Under the pieces are notes generated by a model that made no database searches, was not told the DNA's origin, and was given only the letters and a program-made list of their open reading frames with translations. Positions 19,720 through 64,000 of a stretch of 64,000 nt of DNA are shown in pieces. The stretch's first letter is position 1; the number at the start of each line of letters is the position of its first letter. A program made the translations under genes and the position numbers. The stretch comes from Streptomyces sp. NA02950 (lineage in GTDB: Bacteria > Actinomycetota > Actinomycetes > Streptomycetales > Streptomycetaceae), in NCBI RefSeq assembly GCF_013364155.1, contig NZ_CP054916.1:1356001-1420000 (forward strand). The letters are read 5' to 3'.

Positions 19720-19789
19720 GCACCGTGGTTCTCACAGCCCGGACCACTCGCCGGGCGAGGCTCCGCCGAAAGGAATCTCAATGATCGTG

Positions 19790-20995
19790 TCAAGCCGCCT
19801 GCGTGACCGGTGGGGCGGGGGTGAACGGCCTTTTGTCACGCAGCATCGCCCACAGCACGTCGACCCGGCGGCGGGCGAGTGCGAGCAGGGCCTGGGTATG
19901 CAGCAGGCCCTCGGATCGTTTCTTGAGGTAGTAGTCCCTGGACGGACCGGGCCGCATCATCGCGGTCTGCGCGGCCAGGTAGAAGATGTGTCGCAGGCGC
20001 CGGTTGTAGCGCTTGGGCCGGTGATAGTTGCCGCTGCGGCGGCCGGAGTCCCGCGCGACCGGGGCCAGGCCGGCGTGGGAGGCAAGTCGGCCGGCATCGC
20101 GGTAGCCCGACAGGTCCCCGACGATGGCGACGAACTCGGCGCCGAGGATGGGCCCCATGCCGGGCATGGACTCGATGACCTCGGCGCGGTCGTCGTCGCG
20201 GAAGGTTTCGCGGATCTCCCGGTCGTTGTCCTTGATCCGCTCGTCCAGCGTCAGCAGCTGGTGGGCGAGGTCGCAGACCAGCTTGGCAGCCCGTTTCTCG
20301 CCGGGCAGCACGGTCATCTGGGACTGGGCGGCCTCCACCGCCTTGGTGGCCACGGTGTCGGCGCTTCGGACCTTGCGGCGTTCCAGCCAGGTCGTCAGCC
20401 GCTTGACGCCGATCCGGCGGAGGGCTGCCGGGGTCTGGTACTCGGTCAGCATGACGATGGGCCCCTTGGCCGCGGAGTAGTCGAAGGCCCGTTCCAGCGC
20501 GGGACAGATCCCGACCAGCAGGTCGCGGAGCCGGTTGATCAGTCTCACCCGGTCGGCGATCAGGTCGGCCCGGTAGTTGGTGAGCACCTGGAGGGTGGTG
20601 ACCAGCTCCGGGGGTGTGTTCAGCGGGGCGAAGTCCTTCGGGCGCATGCGGGCCTGGTCGGCGATGACACGGGCGTCCTTGGCGTCGGTCTTGCCCTCCC
20701 CACGGTAGGCGCCGGACATACGGTTGACCGTCCGGCCGGGCACGTAGACCACCTGCTGGCCGTGGGCAATCAGCAGGGCCAGCAGCAGGGTGGAGGCCCT
20801 GCCGGAGATATCCACCGCCCACCGCACTTCATCGGCCCGCTCACGGGCGGTGTCGATGAGGGCGAGAATCTGCGACTCGTCGTTGATCACCTTCGTCGAG
20901 AAAAGTGTCTCGCCGTCGGCGTCGACCGCCACCGCCCAGTGATGCCCCTTGCCGGCGTCGATGCCGACCCATATCCGCGTGTGAGACGTGCTCAA
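19790..20995 (-). CDS. IS110-family transposase (DEDD recombinase)
   Basis: A ~401-residue recombinase. The N-terminal RuvC-like DEDD domain (about 1-160) shows HTRIWVGIDAGKGHHWAVAV with the first Asp, WAVDISGRAS, and GKTDAKDARVIADQARM with the last Asp residues. A coiled-coil linker precedes the C-terminal Tnp domain (about 270-370) with ESMPGMGPILGAEFVA and the SHAGLAPVARDSG segment that carries the catalytic Ser region, then GNYHRPKRYNRRLRHIFY. IS110 recombinases are guided by an RNA from the element's non-coding end and cut via this composite site. The TTG at 20995 gives the usual start; the frame extends to 21055 but that part overlaps the presumed RNA. All key motifs look intact, so the element may be active. 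Confidence 0.9.
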   Translation of the reverse strand: MSTSHTRIWVGIDAGKGHHWAVAVDADGETLFSTKVINDESQILALIDTARERADEVRWAVDISGRASTLLLALLIAHGQQVVYVPGRTVNRMSGAYRGEGKTDAKDARVIADQARMRPKDFAPLNTPPELVTTLQVLTNYRADLIADRVRLINRLRDLLVGICPALERAFDYSAAKGPIVMLTEYQTPAALRRIGVKRLTTWLERRKVRSADTVATKAVEAAQSQMTVLPGEKRAAKLVCDLAHQLLTLDERIKDNDREIRETFRDDDRAEVIESMPGMGPILGAEFVAIVGDLSGYRDAGRLASHAGLAPVARDSGRRSGNYHRPKRYNRRLRHIFYLAAQTAMMRPGPSRDYYLKKRSEGLLHTQALLALARRRVDVLWAMLRDKRPFTPAPPVTQAA

Positions 20996-21039
20996 ACTCG
21001 TTGCTCCGTTCCACCGTGACCAGCACCTTTCGTGGTCCG

Positions 21040-21180
21040 AGGAACACTCCGCCAACAGGTCCCTAACCAGCGATGACCGCAGTTCTCAATCAGTGGTCGG
21101 AGCGTCCCGGAGGACCGGGCGGCCATTCCTTTCGAGCCACGAACGGCAACCCACCATCAGCCACACCCGGTCCTCCCGGA
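21040..21180 (-). ncRNA. Candidate IS110 bridge RNA
   Basis: The non-coding stretch before the transposase can form two stem-loops in the RNA sense (minus strand). The 5' one has a lower stem 21166-21179/21106-21119 (13 of 14 pairs), a 46-base loop and a small inner GCC/GGC hairpin. The 3' one has a lower stem 21098-21105/21044-21051 (8 pairs, one G-U) and an inner GCG/CGC hairpin. The 5' loop carries UGGCUGAU (7 of 8 identical to the left target) and CGAAAGG (complementary to the right target). The 3' loop carries AUUGAGA and UUAGG, matching the element's right and left ends. This is the order known for IS621 bridge RNA. Folding was done by eye. Confidence 0.6.
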
Positions 21181-21205
21181 CCGCCAACATTCTTAGGGAT
21201 CCGCC

Positions 21206-21616
21206 ATGACCACGCACGCCACCGGCCACTTCACCTTCGCCGACTGGCGGGAGACGGACACCGGGCAGGCCGGGGACGGGGCGAGGATCGCCCGCGCCCA
21301 GGTCGTCAATGGCTACGCGGGCGCCATCACGGCGCCGGACACCGTATGCCAGTACTCGATCGTCTACACCACCGAGAAGACCGGCTCCTTCACCGGCCAT
21401 GAGCTGGTGGAGGGCGAGCTCGACGGCCGCCGGGGCGGCTTCGTGCTGGCGCAGCACGGCAGCTTCGGCGAGGACGGCACCGTGCACTGCTCGTTCGAGG
21501 TGGTGCCCGGCTCCGGCAGCGGTGAGCTGGCCACGCTCACCGGCCGGGGCTCCTTCACCGCCCCGCACGGCGTCCAGGAGGTCGCGTACTCCTTCGACTA
21601 CGAGCTGGCGGACTGA
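21206..21616 (+). CDS. DUF3224 domain protein
   Basis: A 136-residue beta-rich protein of the DUF3224 (lipocalin/allene-oxide-cyclase-like barrel) family, with HFTFADWRETDTGQ at the start, CQYSIVYTTEKTGSFTGHEL in the middle and a closing SFDYELAD strand. Function is unknown; relatives often sit beside WYL or MarR regulators in actinomycetes. It probably formed a divergent pair with the WYL gene until the IS110 element inserted 8-10 bases before its ATG. The remaining agggatccgcc still offers a ribosome site, but the original promoter and palindrome are now 1.4 kb away. Expression may therefore be lost or depend on the element. Confidence 0.75.
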   Translation: MTTHATGHFTFADWRETDTGQAGDGARIARAQVVNGYAGAITAPDTVCQYSIVYTTEKTGSFTGHELVEGELDGRRGGFVLAQHGSFGEDGTVHCSFEVVPGSGSGELATLTGRGSFTAPHGVQEVAYSFDYELAD

Positions 21617-50404: not shown

Positions 50405-50615
50405 CTGTCATCAACCTGAGAGCTTCACCGGCCCGCGTTGTGCCTGACCGGCTTTCACCGTCGGTGAGGAGGGGTTTCGGAGCGACGCCCGCCCGTGGCC
50501 CACCCTGCTTTCCAGAGTGACCTCACCCGCACGGTACGTGTGCCTGAGAGATTCCGGGGAGGATTTGCTCCTTCGGCGCCTCCGACAACAATCGACGGAG
50601 AACTCTCCCGCACGG
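50405..50615 (-). promoter_or_regulatory. Tandem glycine riboswitch upstream of gcvP
   Basis: Reading the minus strand, the first aptamer has gcgggagagttc near its 5' end (about 50612-50598), the strongly conserved ggcgccgaaggagcaa and cctccccggaa core, then ctctcaggcac (about 50544). A second aptamer follows with ctctggaaagcaggg, gacggtgaaagccg and gctctcaggt (about 50412-50420). It ends about 75 bases before the gcvP start. Two aptamers in tandem with one target is the classic arrangement and would activate gcvP in excess glycine. Confidence 0.9.
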
Positions 50616-50745
50616 GGTCTACAGCCAAAGCCAGCGTACCAGCGCATCTGTCGCACGGGCGGGGCGCCGACCGCTCGAGTGGCCGCGCGCGGCGATGTGG
50701 CTTTTTGTAGTTATCACTGGACAATTGCCACCTGTGGGAGAGAGC

Positions 50746-61895: not shown

Positions 61896-61905
61896 GCACA
61901 ATTTG

Positions 61906-62022
61906 TTCGGCGGCGTCCTACTCTCCCACAGGGTCCCCCCTGCAGTACCATCGGCGCTGAAAGGCTTAGCTTCCGGGTTCGGAATGTAACCGGGCGTTTC
62001 CCTAACGCAATGACCACCGAAA
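61906..62022 (-). rRNA. rrf: 5S ribosomal RNA
   Basis: The complement begins ttcggtggtcattgcgttag and ends gtgggagagtaggacgccgc, matching actinobacterial 5S rRNA over its full length (~117 bases). It is the last gene of the operon and is followed by a strong terminator. The boundaries are estimated to within two or three bases. Confidence 0.95.
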
Positions 62023-62097
62023 CACTATAAAGTTGAACCGGACATGGACACGGTTCATTACTTCAGAACCAACACAGTGGACGCGAGCAACTGAGGA

Positions 62098-64000
<1,903 letters not shown>

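Follow-up and report, generated by a model that had tools for sequence, protein, structure and literature searches.

The insertion sequences closest to the element described here are IS621, IS900 and the IS1111/IS110 elements with seekRNAs. IS621 inserts at REP targets. IS900, from Mycobacterium avium subsp. paratuberculosis, is said, following work by Doran from 1997, to insert at translation signals, and its target consensus is CATGN4-6CNCCTT. An antisense ORF, hed, runs through IS900, as a passage of one report describes (PMC8141618). For IS621, passages of another report describe a handshake guide and a promoter at the circle junction (PMC11208158). In addition, parts of a third report mention longer right target guides (RTGs) in some IS621 orthologues and place the RNA of IS1111 elements in the right end (PMC11208160).

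Here we compare a locus of Streptomyces sp. NA02950 with these systems. Very probably, the locus is an RNA-guided IS110 insertion sequence at a gene start, in which a captured Shine-Dalgarno sequence opens an antisense ORF.

Results

The element, its copies and its core

The window, that is, the whole 64,000-nt stretch of DNA analysed, carries on its minus strand (19775-21199) an IS110-group element that encodes a DEDD recombinase and has ~200 non-coding bases at its left end. Matches to the DEDD_Tnp_IS110 and Transposase_20 models (Pfam, NCBIfam) place the recombinase in the IS110 family, and its gene probably starts at the TTG at 20995. With the TIGR-Tas endonuclease model NF052498 the transposase scores 43.7 bits (E 3e-11), below the cut-off of 100.

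19775-21199, minus strand: IS110-group element, ~1,425 bp counting one core copy
19790-20995, minus strand: DEDD transposase/recombinase gene (Pfam PF01548, PF02371; NCBIfam NF033542)
21198-21199 and 19773-19774: core, GA on the plus and TC on the minus strand, placed from five own copies and the TC-only relatives L014 and L019

Elsewhere in the window lie a glycine riboswitch (50522-50620, minus strand) and, at the window end, 5S and 23S rRNA genes (61905-64000, minus strand).

Five near-identical copies of the element are present in the 9.77-Mb genome. Their left flanks part at the target followed by TC-CCTAAGAATG, and their right flanks at CATTGAGAT-TC-CTTTC followed by divergence. Since relatives differ past the core, the CTTTC is read as belonging to all five targets and not to the element. 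The core cannot be placed from the window copy alone because TCC is common to both its junctions; in the relatives L014 and L019, TC alone is common to both. Our junction table took in 49 of the loci L001-L060, leaving out a duplicate (L011), three broken loci (L024, L026, L060), other families (L006-L010) and two loci with no recognised left end (L030, L044). The left core is TC in 44 of these 49 elements, and the right core is TC in the 40 of 49 that were scored. Judged by the junctions, the core is TC (GA on the plus strand), not GG.

Two sister copies, copies 2 and 3, have empty sites that confirm their junction. For copy 2, L061 reads GGTCATGGACG joined to TCCTTTCCGTCA (89%), and L070 is a further one (80%). 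For copy 3 there are L062 and L063, the latter CATGATGGTGGT joined to TCCTTTCGATTGCGG (88%), and others at 71-83%. These empty sites hold one TC where the occupied sites hold two. The empty-site check proposed in the first-pass annotation thus succeeded for these two copies, whereas for the window copy the sole empty site spanning the junction is L076, at a 74% match; copies 4 and 5 have no empty site among the loci kept from related genomes.

A bridge RNA backed by covariation

The first-pass annotation had proposed an IS621-type bridge RNA before the transposase gene on the minus strand. RNAalifold on 40 relatives gives two stem-loops, each with an internal loop, and both lower stems named in that annotation are present in the register it gave. 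RNA position p corresponds to window position 21200-p.

21032-21187, minus strand: bridge RNA, with the extent of the match to covariance model R1
21181-21159/21124-21104, minus strand (RNA 19-41/76-96): lower stem of the target loop, consensus of 40 relatives
RNA 53-55/62-64, minus strand: apical stem of the target loop, RNAalifold consensus of 40 relatives
21136-21147, minus strand: apical hairpin GCC...GGC separating the target guides, consensus of 40 relatives
21103-21095/21053-21046, minus strand (RNA 97-105/147-154): lower stem of the donor loop, consensus of 40 relatives
RNA 120-122/128-130, minus strand: apical stem of the donor loop, RNAalifold consensus of 40 relatives

The consensus of the 40 relatives has 34 pairs, with 99.0% of cells paired. 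Folding with homologues, the check that had been suggested, finds changes on both sides in 12 of the 34 pairs, against a shuffle mean of 4.4 (0/500 shuffles) and at most 3 in slid controls. Of the three pairs in the GCC...GGC hairpin, one is replaced on both sides, from CG to UA, in 3 sequences. We rely on covariation because the single-sequence minimum free energy fold has parts of the guides paired and reaches only moderate stability (z -2.74). The covariance model matches 79 of 80 loci fetched by their transposase. Rfam gives no bridge-RNA match at the locus, only sub-threshold, chance-like ones, and the consensus of 40 relatives has no separate 5' stem-loop. Covariation, the held-out families below and the empty sites of sister copies support the main proposal, an IS621-type bridge RNA whose guides specify the insertion site. 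The left end has a structured RNA with two internal loops, as in the IS621 type, and the bridge RNA of this IS110 element is real.

Target guides

To map the guides, every RNA column was compared with every target position (48 left-target and 39 right-target pairs after removal of duplicates; 300 permutations, repeated within clades). The left target picks RNA 43-52 (z up to 6.5, within clades up to 5.0, 0/300 permutations) and the right target RNA 64-73 (z up to 9.2, within clades up to 8.3, 0/300). Both target guides thus covary with their targets, as in IS621-type RNAs, and guides vary with targets across relatives in the way that the first-pass annotation had suggested checking.

21148-21157, minus strand: left target guide (LTG), AUGGUGGGUU, 10 nt, from guide-target covariation and held-out sets
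21127-21134, minus strand: RTG with core, CGAAAGGA, a Shine-Dalgarno look-alike, from guide-target covariation

The RTG had been proposed as CGAAAGG (21134-21128) and is found there. A 10-base identity noted at the same time, CGAAAGGAAT, also holds, being the RTG, the core and two bases that pair with the donor end; the GG core drawn from it does not. Aligned on the core, the element's own LTG fits its five targets unevenly (6, 3, 7, 5 and 4 of 8). Because of this uneven fit and an ATG spacing of 5-10 nt, the RTG and core may carry most of the specificity. Among re-aimed relatives, the guides AAAGCCGC, CAGGTCGCC and AGTAGGGC match their own targets exactly, and ACAACGCC is one letter off.

Searched with the RNA covariance model, the own genome yields 17 bridge RNAs, of which four other families account for 12, and in a class sample 22 of 296 genomes contain matches. 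Held-out families (21, being those of 39 loci that lay outside the modelled alignment and below ~135 bits, one per guide pair) were used with the LTG placed by the model alone. Compared with the upstream flank, these LTGs match 179 of 210 positions against 135.8 +/- 4.0 (0/2000). Two further held-out sets give 352/440 against 269.8 +/- 5.9 for 44 guides and 294/390 against 232.6 +/- 5.1 for 39 guides (0/5000 each). A candidate right end was at first seen in 8 of the 21 families and none was recognised for 13; longer stretches for 15 families gained no convincing right end. Among the eight, the RTG fits 7-9 of 9 in six, 5 in L103 and 4 in L110.

Some bridge RNAs occur without a transposase gene. 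L219 (G107:C1 ~10602925) and L179 (G238:C260 ~81408) have both ends and a complete bridge RNA within ~215 and 425 bases, and no transposase match; they are mini-elements, non-autonomous derivatives of IS110 with a guide of their own. In L167, L173, L174, L186, L191 and others, bridge-RNA left ends lie before start codons, again with no transposase match, and in one sample 22 of 57 bridge-RNA places had no transposase within 1.9 kb. Such left ends could be remnants kept for supplying the leader of the downstream gene.

Donor guides, handshake guide and a predicted circle promoter

The donor guides named in the first-pass annotation, AUUGAGA (left, LDG) and UUAGGGA (right, RDG), lie in the second loop where it had placed them.

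21084-21090, minus strand: LDG, AUUGAGA, matching the left donor (LD), nearly invariant
21060-21066, minus strand: RDG, UUAGGGA, complementary to the core and right donor (RD)
21125-21126, minus strand: handshake guide AU, pairing with the donor end AT, 36 of 40 elements
19789-19794, minus strand: TTGACA (-35) in the right end, joining TAAGAA across a 17-nt spacer in the circle
21195-21190, minus strand: TAAGAA (-10), partner of TTGACA at the circle junction

Pairing of donor guides with donor ends, another IS621-type feature, is seen in the RDG: in 43 of 49 elements, whose donor ends come in several variants (mainly TTACGGA, TTAGGGA and TTAAGGA), it fits core and RD at 7 of 7 positions. Being almost invariant, the LDG gives little covariation and is uninformative here. 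RNA bases 74-75 match the final two donor bases in 36 of 40 elements. When the element ends are joined, they give TTGAC[AT]-N17-TA.... in 37 of 40 elements, with an 18-nt spacer in one more, a sequence motif that predicts a circle-junction promoter of the IS621 type.

Insertion between Shine-Dalgarno sequence and start codon

The proposed insertion site, the ribosome-binding region of a DUF3224 gene, is borne out for the window copy. The copies together show what that annotation had missed, namely that a start-site signal of a general kind is targeted and not a single locus.

21200-21213, plus strand: left target, with the TCCGCC spacer and the DUF3224 start codon, ATG at 21206-21208
19767-19774, plus strand: right target, captured host Shine-Dalgarno sequence CGAAAGGA, 6 nt before the ATG at 19781
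21193-21199, plus strand: element end TTAGGGA, predicted from duplex energies to be a weaker Shine-Dalgarno sequence before DUF3224

All five own insertions lie directly after GAAAGGA, that is, with CTTTC past the core, and an opposite-strand ATG 5-10 nt beyond opens 61-465 codons. The host genes encode DUF3224 (window copy) and an MFS transporter (copy 2); those of the other three copies have no Pfam match above cut-off. A Shine-Dalgarno tetramer together with an ATG that opens 60 codons or more accompanies 23 of the 39 elements with two junctions, and 0.49% of 35,200 random flank positions; for the ATG and ORF without the tetramer, the figures are 30 elements and 4.0%. Insertion between a Shine-Dalgarno sequence and an opposite-strand start codon, the IS900-like arrangement, is thus found in 5/5 own copies and, counted strictly, in 23/39 elements. 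These flanks indicate that the target is a translation-initiation region read backwards, in which the RTG corresponds to the Shine-Dalgarno sequence (GAAAGGA) and the LTG pairs with the start-codon side. Viewed from the gene strand, the RTG copies the Shine-Dalgarno sequence, and the LTG is complementary to the spacer and to the letters with which the start codon begins.

For 31 start-site insertions, picked by hand, the predicted mean duplex energy with the anti-Shine-Dalgarno sequence (in what we take to be the 16S tail) is -9.1 kcal/mol for the native sequence; insertion weakens it to -6.1, and shuffling the element end gives -3.5. According to this modelling, the host gene would keep a weaker Shine-Dalgarno sequence after insertion and, we infer, residual expression.

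A second IS110 family of the own genome, F2, has six copies (L086-L091; G000:C1 1930394, 2601499, 3969113, 4668151, 4866432 and 9196645). With the guide AUCACUGG it sits before GTG codons, opening downstream ORFs of 400, 31, 136, 239, 384 and 18 codons, of which two are doubtful. Its antisense ORF has 487 codons in the copy examined.

In four loci with UCA guides (L192, L213, L221, L223), the insertion precedes a TGA by a few bases, and this TGA ends an ORF of at least 99-168 codons. Such TGA-adjacent insertion is seen in 4 of 6 scorable loci, L193 and L202 giving 10 and 14. The fit of guides to TGA stop codons is a weak signal, and the four may possibly represent stop-codon-targeting families.

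An antisense ORF linked to guide type

19781-21019, plus strand: antisense ORF of 412 codons through the transposase gene, with its ATG in the right end of the element

The captured GAAAGGA lies 6 nt before the ATG of this ORF, which at the sequence level is the hed-type arrangement. The first-pass annotation had not picked out this ORF. No Pfam or NCBIfam model matches it, and a protein database gave just four matches out of 7,987 candidates scored. In most elements the frame runs codon-on-codon with the transposase gene, so that it is closed solely by transposase TTA, CTA and TCA codons.

Sorted by target site, with near-copies still included, the frame is stop-free in 30 of 36 elements at start sites and 4 of 18 others. 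Subsequent tests were confined to distinct elements in which 330 or more codons could be aligned, in sets of 44 and 55, ten near-identical copies being left out by hand from the 44-element analyses. By guide, using the RNA alone, the frame is stop-free in 24 of 25 start-site elements and 2 of 19 others of the 44, for which the guide rule is post hoc, having been framed after the result of the site rule, which was set first. The 55 validation elements were taken from 79 model matches (15 already seen, 6 duplicates and 3 too short were removed) in named genomes with the rules preset. Many are relatives of the first 44, and in them the frame is open in 39 of 43 start-site elements and 4 of 12 others by guide (p 1.5e-4), and in 34 of 35 and 5 of 16 by site (p 1e-6; four elements without scorable site). 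A set of 18 elements, from 57 places of which 22 had no transposase match within 1.9 kb, shows no association by the guide rule (two-by-two table 1, 1; 7, 9), which was widened by one letter for this set and unchanged for the 55; the site rule gives 3, 0; 5, 10 (p 0.07).

The tree of 44 elements requires at least 10 changes of guide type. Of 7 pairs that differ in guide, 5.3 agree with the link and none goes against it (median p 0.06). A quick tree of 99 elements gives by guide 4.2 agreeing, 0.0 opposite and 2.8 without difference of 7 (median p 0.125), and by site 3.3, 1.0 and 6.7 of 11 (median p 0.625). With relatedness removed the link is not significant, and the tree-corrected tests lean the same way.

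Antisense-stop codons were compared with the number expected from each gene's own use of A-ending codons; the Poisson values treat related genes as independent and are not to be taken literally. Observed over expected, they are 1/86.3 and 11/153.1 with start-site guides and 62/88.9 and 26/54.4 with other guides, while the control codons CTT and TCT stand at 0.44-0.57 of expectation in every group. Shuffles of synonymous codons reach the observed ORF length in 0-11 of 200 for the own copies; for many relatives 200 of 200 do so, since these lack the closing codons entirely. Fourfold-site identity is higher in open-open pairs in four of five identity bands, the top band running opposite on 3 closed pairs; this could follow from GC3.

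Three further copies in the own genome (L095-L097) have a start-site guide and a right end with GATTGGGA in place of CATTG, and hence no ATG. The copy examined has a closed antisense frame, which makes it an exception to the coupling.

These comparisons make it likely, though not proven, that a start-site guide and an open antisense ORF are coupled, and that elements guided to start sites keep the ORF open, with elements re-aimed elsewhere mostly losing it.

Discussion

Alternative explanations

The first-pass annotation took UGGCUGAU (21163-21156) for the left target guide and GG for the core. In the window copy, the 8-mer is identical to the target in 7 of 8 positions and GG is common to both junctions. 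The 8-mer, however, turns out to be conserved scaffold: of 49 aligned relatives, 26 have it unchanged and 48 start with TGGC irrespective of target. Against the core-adjacent targets of the five own copies it scores 7, 3, 5, 4 and 4 of 8, and because the sister copies match only 3-5 the 7 of 8 looks fortuitous. The covariation signal lies downstream of UGGCUGAU, none of the eight listed best LTG windows beginning at RNA 37-41, which together with the scaffold conservation rules out this 8-mer as LTG; GG as core is ruled out by the junctions of L014 and L019, which share TC only. We therefore regard the combination as scarcely credible. Nor do we give much credit to recognition of start sites by the transposase protein, with RNA matches that are incidental or an RNA that is merely a regulatory leader. 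Most relatives examined do have one target type, and start-signal targeting by IS900 was described long before guide RNAs, but guides change with targets within clades, including the non-start guides AAAGCCGC and CAGGTCGCC, and the guides of held-out families fit their targets too. This makes recognition by protein very improbable.

More can be said for a third alternative, in which the antisense frame is no gene and stays open simply through high GC and codon bias; we consider it unlikely rather than remote. Start-site elements have the higher GC3 (0.878 v 0.840, p 0.02), a codon-on-codon frame leaves only TTA, CTA and TCA to close it, the tree-corrected pair tests are not significant, and the 18-element validation was negative by the guide rule. 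In addition, family F5 (L096) combines a start-site guide with no ATG and a closed frame. Base composition, however, does not readily explain why closing codons are nearly absent with start-site guides and common with other guides when the control codons are alike throughout. In the Rhodococcus element L296, with a start-site target and a GC3 of only 0.69, zero stops are seen against 5.9 expected, although the guide rule classes it as 'other'. We thus prefer an ORF preserved in step with the guides.

A model for guided insertion at gene starts

The sequence comparisons show the RNA structure with its guides, the junctions, the preference for start sites and the association of an open ORF with guide type; what they suggest is RNA-guided recombination by this element and translation of its antisense ORF. 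In our model, the left end of the element would encode the bridge RNA. Excision as a circle would bring the two ends together into the TTGACA-N17-TAAGAA promoter, presumably driving the bridge RNA. In the first loop, the LTG AUGGUGGG(UU) would pair with the strand opposite the left target and the RTG CGAAAGGA with the right target; the second loop would pair with the element's own ends, and exchange would take place at the TC core. With an RTG that is itself a Shine-Dalgarno sequence and an LTG spanning the spacer and first start-codon letters, the element could insert between the Shine-Dalgarno sequence and the ATG of many genes, its transposase gene facing away from the gene. The host Shine-Dalgarno sequence, left before the ATG of the right end, would then open the antisense ORF, and the left end would supply a weaker one to the host gene.

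We lean towards a general view in which this actinobacterial IS110 family reaches many genes by start-site guides. Coupled to these guides would be an antisense gene encoding a protein, which the captured Shine-Dalgarno sequence would turn on and which would decay once guides are re-aimed. This offers an RNA-guide explanation for the start-site targeting long known from IS900, and an example of a natural guide that accepts many start sites through a near-universal signal. The 'hed' ORF becomes a testable question, as guide type predicts a preserved antisense frame. Many copies and empty sites allow the guide rules to be tested without new sequencing.

Comparison with known systems

Relative to the literature searched, two points are new: that guides account for start-site targeting, and that start-site guides go with an open antisense ORF. 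In the open-access literature, searched by title and start of abstract with subscription papers and preprints mostly outside its scope, no paper joined bridge or seekRNA guides with Shine-Dalgarno sequences, start codons or hed, and no paper describing an IS900 guide RNA was found. The main text of Durrant 2024 does not contain 'start codon', 'Shine', 'Streptomyces' or 'mycobacter'.

IS900 resembles our element in inserting at translation starts, reportedly and as the title of Doran 1997 has it. Its hed, in the passage of the report describing it, resembles the antisense ORF found here (PMC8141618). Guides, covariation and re-aimed relatives belong to the present family, IS900 being compared by description only. 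Like the seekRNAs of IS1111/IS110 elements, which parts of one report describe as selecting the target from the non-coding end (PMC11187229), the present RNA lies in a non-coding end, which here is the left one, outside the IS1111 group.

The target, a start site here, differs from the REP target of IS621, as does the lack of a separate 5' stem-loop in the consensus. Other differences, by the passages of PMC11208160 that cover them, are the core, TC here and CT in IS621, and the RTG, ~8 nt including the core here, with 4 paired in IS621. Likeness to IS621, in those same passages, extends to the left-end bridge RNA, its two internal loops and the order and polarity of LTG/RTG and LDG/RDG (PMC11208160). 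It also includes the core dinucleotide, the handshake guide and the circle-junction promoter, predicted here (passages of PMC11208160, PMC11208158). In every feature that sequence can test, except the 5' stem-loop, the element thus appears to belong to, and to work like, the IS110 group with an IS621-type bridge RNA.
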